Below, piece after piece: positions 48,480-53,597 of a DNA stretch of 60,927 nucleotides. The notes below the pieces were generated by a model. It saw only the letters and a list, made by a program, of their open reading frames with translations. It was not told where the DNA came from and searched no databases. Numbering within the stretch: position 1 is the stretch's first letter; each line of letters starts with the position of its first letter. The position numbers were made by a program, and so were the translations under genes. Source of the DNA: Lachnospiraceae bacterium (GTDB lineage Bacteria; Bacillota; Clostridia; Lachnospirales; Lachnospiraceae); the NCBI GenBank assembly GCA_022799175.1, contig JAAWNY010000010.1:1-60927 (forward strand). The letters run 5' to 3'.

Positions 48480-48508
48480 TTGACATTTTGTTTTTGAATG
48501 ATTACAAT
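48480..48508 (+). promoter_or_regulatory. Promoter of the cobalamin-riboswitch operon
   Basis: A perfect TTGACA (48480-48485), a 17-bp spacer and TACAAT (48503-48508) lie about 40 bp before the riboswitch. Confidence 0.8.
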
Positions 48509-48547
48509 AAGACAGAAAACATGCCCTTGTCCATTAAGGGTAACTTC

Positions 48548-48725
48548 ATAGAAGATCAAGTGCCGGCTTTACGAAGCCGGGTAAAAGAGAACCGGGTGAA
48601 AATCCCGGGCGATCCGGTCACTGTGAGCGGGGAGTGATTCTGCAAGTGCCATTGTGCAGTCGCATGAGAAGGCGCAGAAGAGCAGCGATCCGTAAGCCAG
48701 GAAACCTGCTTGATCGGTATATGTT
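48548..48725 (+). ncRNA. Cobalamin (adenosylcobalamin) riboswitch
   Basis: The conserved core is easily followed: GAACCGGGTGAAAATCCCGG, then CCGGTCACTGTGA, and the B12 box GCCAGGAAACCTGC at 48696-48709. The class is therefore clear. Cobalamin binding should promote the downstream terminator and switch off the operon. TTCCTG near 48731 can pair with CAGGAA at 48763-48768, which is a reasonable antiterminator. Genes controlled are the lipoprotein chelatase and the ABC transporter behind it. Confidence 0.93.
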
Positions 48726-48764
48726 GGCGCTTCCTGTGAAAGTCTGTTCAACAAAGAAATGCAG

Positions 48765-48790
48765 GAAGGTTCCTTGGGAGCCTTCTTTTT
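48765..48790 (+). terminator. Riboswitch-controlled terminator
   Basis: GAAGG (48765-48769) and TCC (48771-48773) pair with GGA (48777-48779) and CCTTC (48781-48785) around a 3-nt loop, with a T-G wobble between, followed by five thymines. It lies between the riboswitch and the first gene, so it is the expression platform. Confidence 0.75.
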
Positions 48791-48893
48791 GTGTTTGCTT
48801 CTTTTTGCGACGCAGAGTTTTCCAGAATGCGTATGGCAAGGGCCGGGGCCGGAGACTCCGGCGAATTCATCGAAATCATAAGGAGGAAGCAAC

Positions 48894-49883
48894 ATGAAGA
48901 AAACAGGAATGGTATTATGGGCGGCGGTTATGACGGCAGTTTGGGGTCTGTCTGGTTGTGGAGGGAGTGTAGGAACAGGAAATCTGGAGAAAGAGACAGT
49001 GGTATTGTCAAAGGCGGTGGTTAACGAGGTGACAGAAAAGGAAAAGCCAGAAACCGACGATGAGAAAAGAAAGGCAGAACAGGGAAGCGAATCGGATATG
49101 GTGATTTTAGCGGTAAGTTTTGGAACCAGTTTTAATGACAATCGGGAGAACACCATTGGAGCAGTTGAAAAGGCAATAGCCAAGGAGTATCCGGAATATG
49201 AGGTGAGAAGGGCCTTTACCTCTCAGATGATTATTGATATCTTAAAGAAACGGGATGGATTAGCGATTGATAATGTAACAGAGGCGCTAGATCGCGCTGT
49301 GGCAGATGGTTTTCGCAGGTTGGTGGTACAGCCGACTCATCTGATGAATGGATTGGAATATGAGGATATGGTGGCGACACTGGAAGAATATGACGAATAT
49401 TTTGATACGATTGTAGTAGGAGAACCGTTACTTACCAGTGATGAAGATTTTAAAGCGGTGGTCAAAGCAATCACAATGGATACAAAAGATTACGATAATG
49501 GAGAAACTGCCATAGTTTACATGGGGCATGGGACAGAGGCAGAATCTAACCAGATCTATGGAAAAATGCAGGAGACACTGAGGCAAGCCGGTTTTGAAAA
49601 TTATTATATAGGTACAGTAGAAGCAGAGCCGACGCTGGAAGATGTGAGGAAAGCATTGAAAGAAAAAGGAGGGTATAAAAAAGTAGTGTTGGTACCATTG
49701 ATGGTGGTGGCTGGAGATCATGCCAACAATGATATGGCTGGAGATGAGGAGGATTCCTGGAAAACGATTTTTGCTGCTGACGGCTATGAAGTGGAGTGTT
49801 TGTTGCAAGGATTGGGAGAGCTGGAAGCGATTCAGCAGATTTATGTCGATCATGTTAGAATTGCTGTCAATAAACAGAAATGA
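48894..49883 (+). CDS. cbiK: Lipoprotein sirohydrochlorin cobaltochelatase CbiK
   Basis: CbiK normally inserts cobalt into sirohydrochlorin in the cytoplasm during anaerobic cobalamin synthesis. Here a 329-residue protein starts with a lipoprotein signal peptide (MKKTGMVLWAAVMTAV, lipobox LSGC near residue 21), so the enzyme should be anchored outside the membrane. The chelatase core begins at VILAVSFGTSFNDNRE (about 69). The metal and catalytic residues are visible: histidine of YMGHGTEAE, glutamate of VEAEPTLEDV and histidine of VVAGDHANNDM. It is first in a B12-riboswitch operon with an ABC importer. Acting on imported or environmental tetrapyrroles is an inference; a periplasmic CbiK form is known in Desulfovibrio. 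Confidence 0.9.
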   Translation: MKKTGMVLWAAVMTAVWGLSGCGGSVGTGNLEKETVVLSKAVVNEVTEKEKPETDDEKRKAEQGSESDMVILAVSFGTSFNDNRENTIGAVEKAIAKEYPEYEVRRAFTSQMIIDILKKRDGLAIDNVTEALDRAVADGFRRLVVQPTHLMNGLEYEDMVATLEEYDEYFDTIVVGEPLLTSDEDFKAVVKAITMDTKDYDNGETAIVYMGHGTEAESNQIYGKMQETLRQAGFENYYIGTVEAEPTLEDVRKALKEKGGYKKVVLVPLMVVAGDHANNDMAGDEEDSWKTIFAADGYEVECLLQGLGELEAIQQIYVDHVRIAVNKQK

Positions 49884-49999
49884 ACAAGAGAATAACGCCA
49901 ATTTCCAGACAGGATGTGGCAAATAACATTTTTGAGGAGAAAATAGGGAACCGTTCGGGTAGCTCGAATGGTTTGGAATCCAAAAAAGGAGCCGGAAAA

Positions 50000-51127
50000 A
50001 TGAAAAATTGGATGATTTCCATTTTGTGTGGTATGGTTTTGGTATGGAATCTGATGGCTTGTGGCAGACAACAGCCACAAACGCCGGTTGTCAGTAGTTT
50101 CCTTACCTATTCTCACAGTATGGAATTGCATTATGCTAGGGAATTTTCCGTTGATTATTATGAAGGCGGTTACGCTTTGATTACCCTTGCCGATTCAGAA
50201 CGTTATTTACTAGTTCCGGAAGATAAGGCGGTTCCTGAGGATTTGGAAACGGATATCACAGTGTTACAGCAGCCATTAAAAAATCTATATCTGGCGGCTT
50301 CAGCGGCCATGGATATGTTTGTGGCTTTAGATGCACTGCCACGGATTCGGTTCAGCTCCTTAAAGGCGGAGGGATGGTATATTCGGGAAGCCAGAGAAGC
50401 TATGGAAGCGGGAACTATCCTTTATGCCGGAAAATATGCAGCTCCGGACTATGAAAAGATTTTAGAGGAGAACTGTGGGCTGGCAGTGGAGAATACAATG
50501 ATTTATCATACTCCCCAAGTGAAGGAGCAATTGGAACGTTTTGGTATTCCGGTACTAGTGGATTATTCTAGTTATGAGAAAGAGCCGCTTGGCAGAACGG
50601 AGTGGGTACGGTTGTATGGCCTGCTGACAGGCAGAGAAGCACAGGCGGAAATGTTATTTGCTGCTGAGCAGGCAGTCTTTGAGTTAGTGAAAGGGGACGA
50701 TTCCACTGGAAAAAAAGTAGCATTTTTTTATATTACCAACAATGGTGAGATCCATGTGCGAACTCCTTCGGATTATCTGCCAAAAATGATTGAATTGGCG
50801 GGTGGATGTTATGTTTTTCAGAATTCAGAGGAAGAGAGCAGTTCCTCTACCATGATGCTGCAGTGGGAGGAGTTCTATGCAGCCGCTAAGGACGCTGATT
50901 GTCTGATATACAACAGTACTGTGGATGGGGAACTGAATTCCGTGGATGAGCTTCTGGCAAAAAGTGGATTGCTGAAGAATTTTAAGGCTGTGCAGGAGGG
51001 AAATGTATTCTGTACCTCCAGAAAATTGTACCAATCTACGATGTCTTTGGGGACTATCACTCATGATCTTCATGAGATACTGGCAGGGCGGGAAGGGAAT
51101 TTGACATATTTTTATAAATTGGAGTGA
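50000..51127 (+). CDS. ABC transporter substrate-binding lipoprotein, BtuF/FepB-like
   Basis: This 375-residue lipoprotein has a signal peptide ending in the lipobox LMAC (near residue 20) and two lobes of the type III binding-protein fold used for cobalamin, haem and siderophores. Lobe 1 contains the region YHTPQVKEQLERFGIPVLVDY; a glutamate in PLGRTEWVRLYG is expected to dock to the permease, and a second docking residue would be in lobe 2. ATG 50000 is chosen for its AAAGGAG and the signal peptide; the open frame begins at 49880 overlapping cbiK, but that would bury the signal sequence. The B12 riboswitch suggests a corrinoid or related ligand. Confidence 0.88.
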   Translation: MKNWMISILCGMVLVWNLMACGRQQPQTPVVSSFLTYSHSMELHYAREFSVDYYEGGYALITLADSERYLLVPEDKAVPEDLETDITVLQQPLKNLYLAASAAMDMFVALDALPRIRFSSLKAEGWYIREAREAMEAGTILYAGKYAAPDYEKILEENCGLAVENTMIYHTPQVKEQLERFGIPVLVDYSSYEKEPLGRTEWVRLYGLLTGREAQAEMLFAAEQAVFELVKGDDSTGKKVAFFYITNNGEIHVRTPSDYLPKMIELAGGCYVFQNSEEESSSSTMMLQWEEFYAAAKDADCLIYNSTVDGELNSVDELLAKSGLLKNFKAVQEGNVFCTSRKLYQSTMSLGTITHDLHEILAGREGNLTYFYKLE

Positions 51128-51136
51128 TAGATAATT

Positions 51137-52144
51137 ATGAAGAGGACCAGTTATGAAGCGGTGTTTTTGCTGTTGATTTTCTTGTTGGCAGGATTGTTGA
51201 CAGCAAATCTTTGCGTGGGAAGTGTGAATATTCCTCTGAGAGAGGTACTATCTCTTCTGAAGGAAAAAGGAGAAAATACTGTGCATAGAGATATTTTATT
51301 CGTTATCCGTTTTCCACGGGCACTAGCTGCTGCTATTCTGGGTGGGGCACTGGCATTATCCGGCTATCTAATGCAGACCTTTTTTCATAATCCGATTGCA
51401 GGTCCGTTTATTTTGGGTATTTCTTCCGGAGCTAAACTTTTCGTGGCATTGACGATGGTGGTATCGTTGGAAATGTTGAGACAGCCAGGGGCTGGTCTGC
51501 TGATTGGAGCGGCATTTGTGGGAGCGATGCTTTCCATGGTTTTTATTATCTTGATGTCTGGTATCTTGGATCGAATGTCGATGTTGATTGTCAGTGGGGT
51601 GATGATAGGATATATTTGTTCGGCAGTGACGGATTTTGTGGTGGCATTTGCAGATGACGCAGATATTGTGAATCTGCATAATTGGTCGAAGGGAAGTTTT
51701 TCAGGGACTGACTGGGAGCAGGTGGCAGTGATAGCGATTGTGGTGTTGACGGTTTCTGCGGGTGTGTTTTTGTTGTCGAAACCGATTCAGGCATATCAGC
51801 TGGGTGAAAATTATGCACGGAACCTTGGGGTAAACATCCGCTGGCTTCGAGTGGCTTTGGTAGTATTTTCAAGTTTACTTTCTGCCTGTGTGACAGCATT
51901 TGCAGGTCCGGTTTCTTTCGTGGGTATAGCTGTGCCACAACTTGTAAAATATTTGTTGGGGACCACACGATCGATGGTAATGATTCCGGCTTGCTTTCTG
52001 GGAGGCGCTGTTTTTTGCCTTTTTTGTGACTTGTTGGCCAGAATGTTGTTAGCGCCCACAGAATTGAGCATCAGTACTGTGACAGCAGTGTTCGGCGCGC
52101 CAGTGGTTCTTGTGATGATGGTGCAGCGACGTAGAGATGTTTGA
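51137..52144 (+). CDS. FecCD/BtuC-type ABC permease
   Basis: The 335-residue permease has the ten-helix profile of the BtuC/FhuB family, with RFPRALAAAILGGALALSG near residue 55, NPIAGPFILGISSGA, LGVNIRWLRV and the coupling-helix region FAGPVSFVGIAVPQLVKYLLG, written here in parts. It follows the substrate-binding protein by 9 bp. Together with the ATPase it would form the importer for a corrinoid or another tetrapyrrole. Confidence 0.92.
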   Translation: MKRTSYEAVFLLLIFLLAGLLTANLCVGSVNIPLREVLSLLKEKGENTVHRDILFVIRFPRALAAAILGGALALSGYLMQTFFHNPIAGPFILGISSGAKLFVALTMVVSLEMLRQPGAGLLIGAAFVGAMLSMVFIILMSGILDRMSMLIVSGVMIGYICSAVTDFVVAFADDADIVNLHNWSKGSFSGTDWEQVAVIAIVVLTVSAGVFLLSKPIQAYQLGENYARNLGVNIRWLRVALVVFSSLLSACVTAFAGPVSFVGIAVPQLVKYLLGTTRSMVMIPACFLGGAVFCLFCDLLARMLLAPTELSISTVTAVFGAPVVLVMMVQRRRDV

Positions 52145-52182
52145 ACTGTTTTTGCAGGAAACAATGGTGGACAGGAGGAAGG

Positions 52183-53283
52183 ATGTCAGAAGAGTTTTTC
52201 TTTTATACGAAGGGCCTGACAGTGGGATATGGGGGCGTTCCTCTGATTAAAGATATCGAGATTCGGATAAGACGGGGAGAAATTTTGACGTTGATCGGGC
52301 CGAATGGCTCTGGGAAGACGACGATTTTGCGCAGTTTGATTCGACAGCTAAAGCCCTTAACAGGAATGGTATATCTGGATGGAAAAAACATAGCGATACA
52401 GAGCGGCAGGGAGCTAGCCCGCAATCTATCCATTGTCTTGACGGATCGTGTTCGACCAGAGCGGATGACCTGTTGTGAAGTGGTGGAGACTGGGAGATAT
52501 CCCTATACAGGAAGATTGGGGAGACTTTCAGCAGAGGATCGGCGGATTGTGCAGGAGGCGATGGAATTGGTTCATGTAACGGAATTAGCCGGGAAAGATT
52601 TTACCCGAATCAGTGACGGACAACGGCAGCGAGTGATGCTGGCACGTGCGCTCAGTCAGGAACCGGAATTGATTGTGCTGGATGAGCCGACGTCTTTTCT
52701 AGATATTCGTCATAAGCTGGAATTTTTGTCCTTACTTCAGGAATTGTCGCGAAAACGCAATTTGTCGGTGATTTTATCTTTGCATGAGTTGGAACTAGCG
52801 GAGCGGGTTTCTGATAAGCTGGTTTGTATTCAAAAAGATCGAATAGACCGTTTGGGAACGCCGGAGGAAATTTTTGTATCAGGATATATCCAACAGCTTT
52901 ACCAAATTCATACTGGTGTCGAGAAAACATGTGGTGGAACACCAGAATTGCCGTCGGTGAAGGGAATTCCAGAGGTATTTGTACTTGCAGGAAATGGCCG
53001 GGGAACACCGGTATATCGAAGGCTACAGCGGCAAGGAATCCCTTTTGTTACTGGAATTTTATGGGAAAATGATCAGGATTATCCTGTAGCAAGACAGCTG
53101 GCAGTTGAGGTGGTGGCAGAACCGGCTTTTTACCGGATTCGGGAATCATCAGTGGCTCGGGCGAAGGAACTGATGACAGGATGTCGGGAGATTATTTGTG
53201 CTTTGAAACCAGAGCTAGGCGGAGAGCTTTATCCGGAGCTTAAAGAACTTTGGGAGTATGGAAGACAGCTAGGGAAAACCTAA
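52183..53283 (+). CDS. ABC transporter ATPase, BtuD-like, with C-terminal extension
   Basis: The ATPase of the importer. Walker A GPNGSGKTT is at residues 39-47, the signature ISDGQRQRV near 145 and Walker B ELIVLDEPTSFLD near 165; the signature is ISDGQ rather than LSGGQ, as in some BtuD/FhuC relatives. After about residue 245 there is an extra domain of about 115 residues with VFVLAGNGRGTPVYRRLQ, GIPFVTGILWENDQDYPVA and EIICALKPELGGEL, which looks like a small alpha/beta (Rossmann-like) fold. Similar tails exist in some clostridial and archaeal cobalamin/iron ABC ATPases, function unknown. ATG 52183 follows AGGAGGAAGG. Confidence 0.88.
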   Translation: MSEEFFFYTKGLTVGYGGVPLIKDIEIRIRRGEILTLIGPNGSGKTTILRSLIRQLKPLTGMVYLDGKNIAIQSGRELARNLSIVLTDRVRPERMTCCEVVETGRYPYTGRLGRLSAEDRRIVQEAMELVHVTELAGKDFTRISDGQRQRVMLARALSQEPELIVLDEPTSFLDIRHKLEFLSLLQELSRKRNLSVILSLHELELAERVSDKLVCIQKDRIDRLGTPEEIFVSGYIQQLYQIHTGVEKTCGGTPELPSVKGIPEVFVLAGNGRGTPVYRRLQRQGIPFVTGILWENDQDYPVARQLAVEVVAEPAFYRIRESSVARAKELMTGCREIICALKPELGGELYPELKELWEYGRQLGKT

Positions 53284-53597
53284 TCTCGTTTTTCATAAAG
53301 GCGTTTTTTCAAACAGATGACGACCGCATTGTGACTAGGCTGAACAGTAAGGTTAATTACGTGAGTTTCATTGTAATAACCAATCAATTCTTCTGTAAGA
53401 TGAATGCCCCCGATCTCCTTTTGCACCAATTTTCGATCTTGTGTGATGACAAGCGAGAGGATGGGCTGGTTGAGATCTAGCCGTTCTTCCAGTTTTTTCA
53501 GGCGGTTTTGAATCATGCTTAGACGTGTGATCTGACTTACACTGGGAGTTTTGCGGGTGTTGTTATCGGCAAACAGACTGGCAGTAATATCTTTCAT
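53280..53597 (-). CDS. Hypothetical protein convergent with the ABC operon
   Basis: I do not recognise this 105-residue protein. The first 20 residues are polar; residues about 25-45 form a likely helix or short coiled coil (MIQNRLKKLEERLDL), and the rest alternates strands, with LSLVITQDRKLVQKE and HVINLTVQPSHNAVVICLKK. No membrane segment, no known motif. It has a GAAAGGA ribosome site and a 4-bp tail-to-tail overlap with the ABC ATPase gene. It looks real from length and coding signal. Confidence 0.65.
   Translation of the reverse strand: MKDITASLFADNNTRKTPSVSQITRLSMIQNRLKKLEERLDLNQPILSLVITQDRKLVQKEIGGIHLTEELIGYYNETHVINLTVQPSHNAVVICLKKRLYEKRD

Follow-up and report, generated by a model that had tools for sequence, protein, structure and literature searches.

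A stretch of 60,927 nucleotides from a Lachnospiraceae bacterium (contig JAAWNY010000010.1 of assembly GCA_022799175.1; hereafter the window) carries a cobalamin riboswitch followed by genes for a CbiK-family chelatase with a lipoprotein signal, a lipoprotein substrate-binding protein, a permease, and an ATPase. I propose that this operon is a B12-repressed importer for tetrapyrrole salvage whose extracytoplasmic component is a lipid-anchored class II chelatase, a proposal that I consider evenly balanced between right and wrong. A more specific version is offered tentatively. Cobalt insertion, the first committed step of B12 synthesis, may have been moved outside the cell, where a lipid-anchored CbiK, a relay of NEAT and binding proteins, and a BtuCD-type importer would let bacteria without tetrapyrrole synthesis of their own build cobamides from a scavenged sirohydrochlorin-type tetrapyrrole. 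In that version, the window holds the copy in a host that keeps the markers of the full pathway. The regulatory element, the protein families, the signal peptides, the conservation of the operon, the fusions, and the co-occurrence patterns described below were established by computation.

The operon in the window

The features of the operon are as follows.

48480..48508 (+): sigma-70-like promoter, TTGACA-17-TACAAT, 11 of 12 consensus positions; weak (11 sites in the scanned region against 8.5 expected)
48541..48727 (+): cobalamin riboswitch aptamer, RF00174, 112.3 bits (gathering score 31.5), E 2.4e-27
48763..48787 (+): intrinsic-terminator-like hairpin with an 11-pair stem and a T tail, between the aptamer and cbiK
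48894..49883 (+): secreted CbiK-family chelatase, predicted lipoprotein, 329 residues, PF06180 at 287 bits
48894..48959 (+): its lipoprotein signal peptide, lipobox LSGC, Cys22, read from the sequence
49338..49340 (+): His149 codon, QPTH motif; His in 48/48 secreted copies
49527..49529 (+): His212 codon, GHG motif, in a stretch aligned with Salmonella CbiK His145
49620..49622 (+): Glu243 codon; Glu in 48/48 secreted copies and in 96/106 CbiK frames of both kinds
49719..49721 (+): His276 codon, GDHA motif, in a stretch aligned with Salmonella CbiK His207
50000..51127 (+): lipoprotein substrate-binding protein, 375 residues from ATG 50000, lipobox LMAC, PF01497 at 94 bits
51137..52144 (+): FecCD/BtuC-type permease, PF01032 at 258 bits
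52183..53283 (+): importer ATPase, PF00005, start ATG 52183, C-terminal extension of about 120 residues

A reading made earlier from the sequence alone (the sequence-only reading) had placed a B12 riboswitch with a terminator before the chelatase gene, and the riboswitch and a terminator-like hairpin were recovered. The riboswitch score is far beyond chance, unlike the stability of the terminator stretch; the hairpin is present in the predicted fold of that stretch, which is no more stable than shuffled sequences (z -1.17).

The lipoprotein signal and the intact active site that had been claimed for CbiK were also borne out. The protein matches PF06180 over its full length (profile positions 3-261 of 262), and the two catalytic histidines of the C-terminal half (His212 and His276) are present. 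The Salmonella residues aligned with these stretches, His145 and His207, are described as important in section 37 of PMC7689651. His149, His212, Glu243, and His276 are identical in all 48 secreted CbiK copies collected in this study, the window included. The wholly conserved metal site argues that secreted CbiK retains metal binding or catalysis and is not a dead scaffold. The match to the NCBIfam equivalog SiroCoChCbiK reached 242 bits, under the cut-off of 400. Relatives in the PDB are 1qgo, 9b86 (FetB), and 2xvx; the similarity is 162 bits for Salmonella CbiK and 159 bits for FetB, while CbiK-P of Desulfovibrio vulgaris is more distant (125 bits).

The importer genes agree with the earlier description of a lipoprotein binding protein, a BtuC-like permease, and an ATPase with an extra domain. 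ATG 50000 is the better start for the binding protein, since ATG 49880 puts 40 extra residues before the signal. A profile of the binding-protein family had four solved-structure matches at E 0.01, including Lmo2184 (E 8.5e-10); IsdE was matched weakly (E 0.0064), BtuF was not among the four, and a comparison of the binding protein with NCBIfam gave no match at E 0.001. The best NCBIfam model for the permease was BtuC, with 200 of the 334 bits required for the equivalog. The corrinoid-ATPase model PRK09536 spans residues 10-340 of the 366 of the ATPase, extension included, with 218 bits, under its cut-off of 537. A 105-residue open reading frame (ORF) on the minus strand (53280-53597), convergent with the operon, has no Pfam match.

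Is the unit an ordinary importer of cobamide or cobinamide? If so, CbiK would have turned into a lipoprotein that binds corrinoid without catalysis, like the surface B12-binding lipoproteins of Bacteroides but in a Gram-positive setting. The B12 riboswitch, the BtuCD-type parts, and an ATPase extension as in corrinoid ATPases speak for it, and so do CbiP, CobT, and CobU downstream in the related locus L042 and the several B12-binding lipoproteins used by Bacteroides thetaiotaomicron (excerpt of PMC12751083). A His/His/Glu site constant in every secreted copy is unexpected for a mere binder. I regard this explanation as unlikely, though far from negligible, and two further points on it are given with the corrin genes below.

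Distribution of the secreted CbiK unit

Is this arrangement common? I analyzed a panel of 150 genomes of the Lachnospiraceae family, one per genus. CbiK is present in 84 of them; 47 genomes have a secreted form, at 48 loci in all. A rule-based call found a lipobox in 45 of these 48 copies, the window included. L115 and L087, which have a signal-like start and no lipobox cysteine, were also counted as secreted, as was L098, whose start is lost at a contig end and which was grouped with the other secreted copies by the tree. The 2 kb upstream of CbiK contain a cobalamin riboswitch in 42 of the 48 secreted loci versus at least 4 of 52 cytoplasmic ones, a count that used 100 of the 109 CbiK matches and excluded the nine lowest rows (weak matches or fragments). 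Three of the 42 came from an extra look at six secreted loci, and the figure is otherwise 39/48; four of the six secreted loci where none was seen begin less than 1 kb from a contig end.

A binding protein and a permease follow CbiK in 31 of 40 secreted loci versus 1 of 46 cytoplasmic loci, and a NEAT-like domain is found in 37 of 40 versus none of 46. These counts exclude loci with less than 4.8 kb of downstream sequence (8/48 secreted, 5/51 cytoplasmic, and 20/80 of the named loci described next) as well as L110. A GTDB scan with an alignment of 17 secreted CbiKs gave 581 loci, of which the best 80 were kept; they belong to Lachnospiraceae, Ruminococcus flavefaciens, Enterocloster, [Eubacterium] infirmum, and others. 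Among the 60 of these named loci with enough sequence, 54 have the binding protein and the permease and 58 have NEAT, and a riboswitch lies upstream of the unit in all seven named loci scanned. ORF picking gave no CbiK frame in 12 of the 80, and a lipobox was seen in 52 of the other 68, secretion not being confirmed for each. The same gene order, which the sequence-only reading had proposed to seek in other Clostridia, does occur there.

In some relatives, the NEAT domain, a fold that binds tetrapyrroles, is fused to CbiK or to the binding protein. The NEAT fold is indicated by structural matches (Foldseek, best 1000 chains) mainly over residues 183-288; the first domain (from about residue 60) is supported by Pfam NEAT matches alone, in one member at residues 57-145 with 30.8 bits against a cut-off of 32.8. 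The conserved gene order, the occurrence of NEAT fusions to CbiK or the binding protein, and the fully conserved metal site make it probable that CbiK works outside the membrane as a partner of the importer. This part of the earlier proposal, a chelatase working outside the membrane on a scavenged tetrapyrrole, stands on those three observations; the substrate, the insertion of cobalt, and the hand-over to the importer are what I infer.

The NEAT fold also brings haem and iron acquisition into view. CbiK would then strip or exchange the metal of haem, as proposed for IhtB/FetB of Porphyromonas, and porphyrin or iron would be imported. The gene set is the same as that of IhtBCDE (excerpt of PMC10913741), FetB is described as a chelatase (excerpt of PMC13402209), and the binding-protein matches to Lmo2184 and, weakly, to IsdE fit such a role. 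I nevertheless consider it improbable: the riboswitch found upstream in 42/48 loci is of the cobalamin class (no search for iron-responsive sites was made), corrin genes lie next to the unit in many genomes that lack HemC, and the similarity to FetB does not exceed that to Salmonella CbiK.

In a quick tree of CbiK, at least three changes between the secreted and cytoplasmic forms are required. The secreted clade of the window has 14 members (support 97), and a second secreted clade, with a longer CbiK match, has 34 (support 91). FetB, which I take to be the same gene as IhtB, pairs with CbiK-P outside both clades and makes the third change; the two may be misplaced, because long branches join the pair.

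Several variants were seen along the way. The long secreted form of the second clade (L055, L061, L064, L069, L093, and others) has a conserved stretch near DQEAADKVAALIDAIYVQERT before the CbiK domain, and its CbiK match is about 828 bases versus 765. In G155 (L154) and G193 (L206), single frames, 589 and 714 residues long respectively, each hold a tandem pair of CbiK domains. In L116, L120, L121, L124, and L127, a cytoplasmic CbiK lies in-frame behind an ABC (ATP-binding cassette) ATPase that, judged by the start of the sequence, resembles the cobalt-import ATPase CbiO. L123 combines CbiK and a tetrapyrrole methylase in one frame (likewise judged by the sequence start), and the CbiK frame of L086 also holds a CbiL match.

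Corrin genes and missing tetrapyrrole synthesis

It was found that 46 of the 47 genomes with secreted CbiK have CbiD, versus 41 of the 103 others (Fisher 6e-13). The sequence-only reading had suggested a correlation of the operon with loss of de novo cobalamin synthesis. For CbiD the association runs the opposite way, and the operon was rejected as a marker of lost corrin synthesis.

The early tetrapyrrole genes gave a different picture. Among the CbiD-containing genomes with HemC (n=57), cytoplasmic CbiK (counted if it scored above 140 bits against the window protein) occurs in 46 and secreted CbiK in 24; among those without HemC (n=30), the numbers are 2 and 22. No CbiK other than the secreted one was matched in these 22 HemC-lacking genomes, and CobA is absent as well in 20 of them. 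The listed completeness is 95% or more for thirteen of the 22 and lower, down to 60%, for nine; thus, the HemC absence is unlikely to be due to missing data throughout. With these 22 genomes, the scavenging idea sharpens into precursor salvage. The simplest reading of them, on gene content, would be that the unit imports the missing precursor and that CbiK inserts cobalt outside. The presence sets for the co-occurrence and pair tests were transcribed by hand from result tables; the HemC set includes G008 at 28 bits, and the CbiL set includes G009 at 162.5 bits, just below the cut-off of 163.25.

A similar pattern was found in 50 named genomes with related loci, chosen from the best 80 loci, whose completeness is not given. 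CbiD is present in 49. HemC is present in 25, of which 15 have another, separate CbiK gene, versus 1 of the 25 that lack HemC. The genomes without a HemC match include those of the cultured Ruminococcus flavefaciens strains Y1, ND2009, and YL228 (L185, L190, and L213), which carry the operon. The tandem frames of G155 and G193 were not counted as second genes. At least three of the 50 (L169, L176, and L179) are most likely identical to panel assemblies (G002, G105, and G119), whose match coordinates they share.

A further pattern concerns the position of the unit in cobalamin gene clusters. CbiK and CbiD lie on the same contig and strand in 11 of the 22 HemC-lacking genomes (G004, G009, G023, G034, G043, G066, G080, G100, G122, G129, and G131). 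The G066 cluster runs from CbiK through NEAT, binding protein, permease, and ATPase to CbiP, CobT, and CobU; next come three ORFs without an assignment, CbiB, and one more such ORF, followed by CbiC, CbiD, CbiF, CbiG, CbiH, CbiJ, CbiET, and CbiA. L193, from a genome without a HemC match, has a riboswitch, a NEAT-like ORF, binding protein, permease, ATPase, the CbiK lipoprotein, and NEAT, followed by CbiC, CbiD, CbiF, CbiG, CbiH, CbiJ, CbiET, CbiA, CobT, and CobU. In L202 ([Eubacterium] infirmum, HemC present), a riboswitch is followed by CbiK, NEAT, and CbiD. In these three clusters, CbiK occupies the place of an early ring-pathway gene. An ordinary cobamide importer leaves unexplained why HemC-lacking genomes retain CbiC, CbiD, and CbiH and rarely have a cytoplasmic CbiK.

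The salvage of a precursor might proceed as follows. When cobamide is scarce, the riboswitch would permit expression of the operon, and CbiK on the outer face of the membrane would bind an exogenous sirohydrochlorin-type tetrapyrrole, into which it would most likely insert or exchange cobalt. The product would pass to the lipoprotein binding protein, via NEAT domains in most relatives, and be imported by the BtuCD-type permease and ATPase. Inside the cell, CbiL (where present), CbiH, CbiF, CbiG, CbiD, and the later enzymes would convert it into cobamide. In organisms without HemC, CobA, and cytoplasmic CbiK, the importer unit would be the entry point of the pathway.

Another use of the same parts would be to acquire cobalt itself, a tetrapyrrole on CbiK or NEAT capturing external cobalt and the complex being imported mainly for the metal. 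B12 riboswitches also control cobalt uptake, and the CbiK metal site is conserved. Such a device is very improbable, because the HemC-lacking genomes have no tetrapyrrole source of their own and because the transporter is of the FecCD type, not the CbiMNQO type.

Replacement of the missing CbiK by CbiX was considered and rejected at the sensitivity used: the PF01903 matches listed fall on CbiK places, except for a weak one of 22.1 bits in G084, a genome that does not belong to the CbiD set, where it lies in a frame of 886 residues. In nine HemC-containing genomes whose only CbiK above 140 bits is the secreted one, SirC/Met8-type proteins might insert cobalt. The anaerobic pathway of most Anaerostipes genomes is described as lacking cbiK (excerpt of PMC12888040).

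Several observations weigh against precursor salvage with cobalt insertion outside the cell. CbiL is over or next to the cut-off in only 10 of the 22 HemC-lacking genomes. The other twelve (G004, G043, G066, G072, G075, G079, G092, G100, G122, G129, G131, and G135) all have CbiD, and CbiH was seen in eleven of them, the G129 stretch ending before CbiH; six of the twelve are listed as 98-100% complete. Thus, with the enzymes known, Co-sirohydrochlorin alone would not feed the pathway of these genomes, which may rely on another methyltransferase or on import of a form already methylated at C20. In the remaining 11 of the 22 HemC-lacking genomes, CbiK and CbiD are on different contigs. Six CbiD-containing genomes without HemC (G018, G040, G052, G094, G127, and G142) have no CbiK match at all. 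The cobalamin cluster of G127 has a binding protein, a permease, and an ATPase without CbiK, so import does not always need the chelatase, a case that also suits a plain cobamide importer. (The cobalamin cluster of G040 runs to the contig end.) Moreover, neither the Fisher test for CbiD nor the one relating cytoplasmic CbiK to HemC among CbiD-containing genomes (1e-11) corrects for kinship. If weak branches are counted, the best CbiK tree requires at least 14 changes of HemC among the secreted rows, but well-supported independent pairs number only three (sign test p 0.5), which makes the sign test uninformative. The ORFs of the window gave no match to the NEAT profile, the remainder of the host genome not being searched, and in L156, as in the window, no NEAT protein was seen. 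Finally, 26 of the 48 secreted rows, the window among them, are in genomes with HemC, where salvage of a finished corrinoid explains as much.

The host of the window (G000; 3.0 Mb, 122 contigs, 91% complete) is such a genome. The sequence-only reading had stated that no other cobalamin synthesis gene is present; this holds on the window contig for the families searched and fails for the genome. CbiD (C56), CbiC (C74), and CbiL (C46) lie on other contigs, C102 has HemC, CobA, and a SirC-like protein, and C95 has another CbiK, 265 residues long, that lacks a signal peptide. With both HemC and CobA, G000 is not a precorrin-2 salvager by its early genes. Since the markers of the whole pathway are there, a cytoplasmic CbiK included, the unit of the window can only be a supplementary route in its own host, which leaves room there for the import of a finished corrinoid. 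The idea of a unit that always merely supplements a full internal pathway, which the earlier reading had named as its refutation, fits this genome and does not fit the group with its 22 HemC-lacking members.

Comparison with known systems

CbiK-P of D. vulgaris is periplasmic, and CbiK of Salmonella is cytoplasmic. To my knowledge, no importer operon is known for CbiK-P. Both belong to the same family as the window protein; CbiK-P (PDB 2xvx-2xvz) sits on a long branch of the tree, and Salmonella CbiK (PDB 1qgo, 2xwp), which shares the catalytic residues, is an enzyme of de novo synthesis.

The BtuFCD cobamide importer has a binding protein, a BtuC-like permease, an ATPase, and a B12 riboswitch in common with the unit, and the window has the cobalamin riboswitch, FecCD permease, and ATPase of that type. 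Unlike BtuFCD, the unit has a chelatase lipoprotein and, in relatives, NEAT, and the BtuC and corrinoid-ATPase equivalog cut-offs were not reached. Most relatives share NEAT, a FecCD permease, and a binding protein with Lmo2184 and weak IsdE matches with the Isd/Hbp haem relay; they differ from it in the B12 riboswitch, the added chelatase, and the adjoining cobalamin genes in many genomes, and the window has no NEAT.

Shelton et al. (PMC6461909, section 13) predicted salvagers of tetrapyrrole precursors, and precorrin-2 salvagers make up 0.6% of genomes in a review (excerpt of PMC8123684). Like the latter, the HemC-lacking relatives have corrin-ring genes without the early tetrapyrrole steps; the host of the window does not. 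The parts of PMC6461909 consulted name no importer or extracellular chelatase for precorrin-2 salvagers, and the operon is a concrete, riboswitch-marked candidate for the precursor uptake left open there. Pairs of a secreted CbiK and an importer may let bacteria unable to make the precursor of the B12 ring collect it from outside. The operon is found in many gut and rumen Clostridia, and with it the precursor question becomes directly assayable by growth and uptake.

A close counterpart is Iht of Porphyromonas gingivalis, which likewise has a CbiK-like lipoprotein, a binding protein, a permease, and an ATPase (excerpt of PMC10913741; PDB 9b86). Its lipoprotein IhtB is thought to take iron out of haem (same excerpt), and FetB is reported as a chelatase that produces Mn-protoporphyrin (excerpt of PMC13402209). 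Iht differs in its Gram-negative setting, in the TonB-dependent receptor IhtA, and in being discussed as haem/iron uptake; FetB differs from the window family in its place outside both secreted clades and its long branch. CbiK is also listed for outer-membrane vesicles of Tannerella forsythia (excerpt of PMC4604654). P. gingivalis is said to lack the steps up to precorrin-2 (excerpt of PMC6461909), and Iht/FetB, so far discussed as haem/iron uptake, can possibly be re-read as serving B12. Because IhtBCDE has the same gene set, an extracytoplasmic CbiK beside an importer is not new in kind. The present system was not described in the titles and abstract beginnings of the literature searched; as far as that search reached, its new features are control by a B12 riboswitch, occurrence in Gram-positive bacteria, a NEAT relay in relatives, adjacency to cobalamin genes, and the link to missing tetrapyrrole synthesis.

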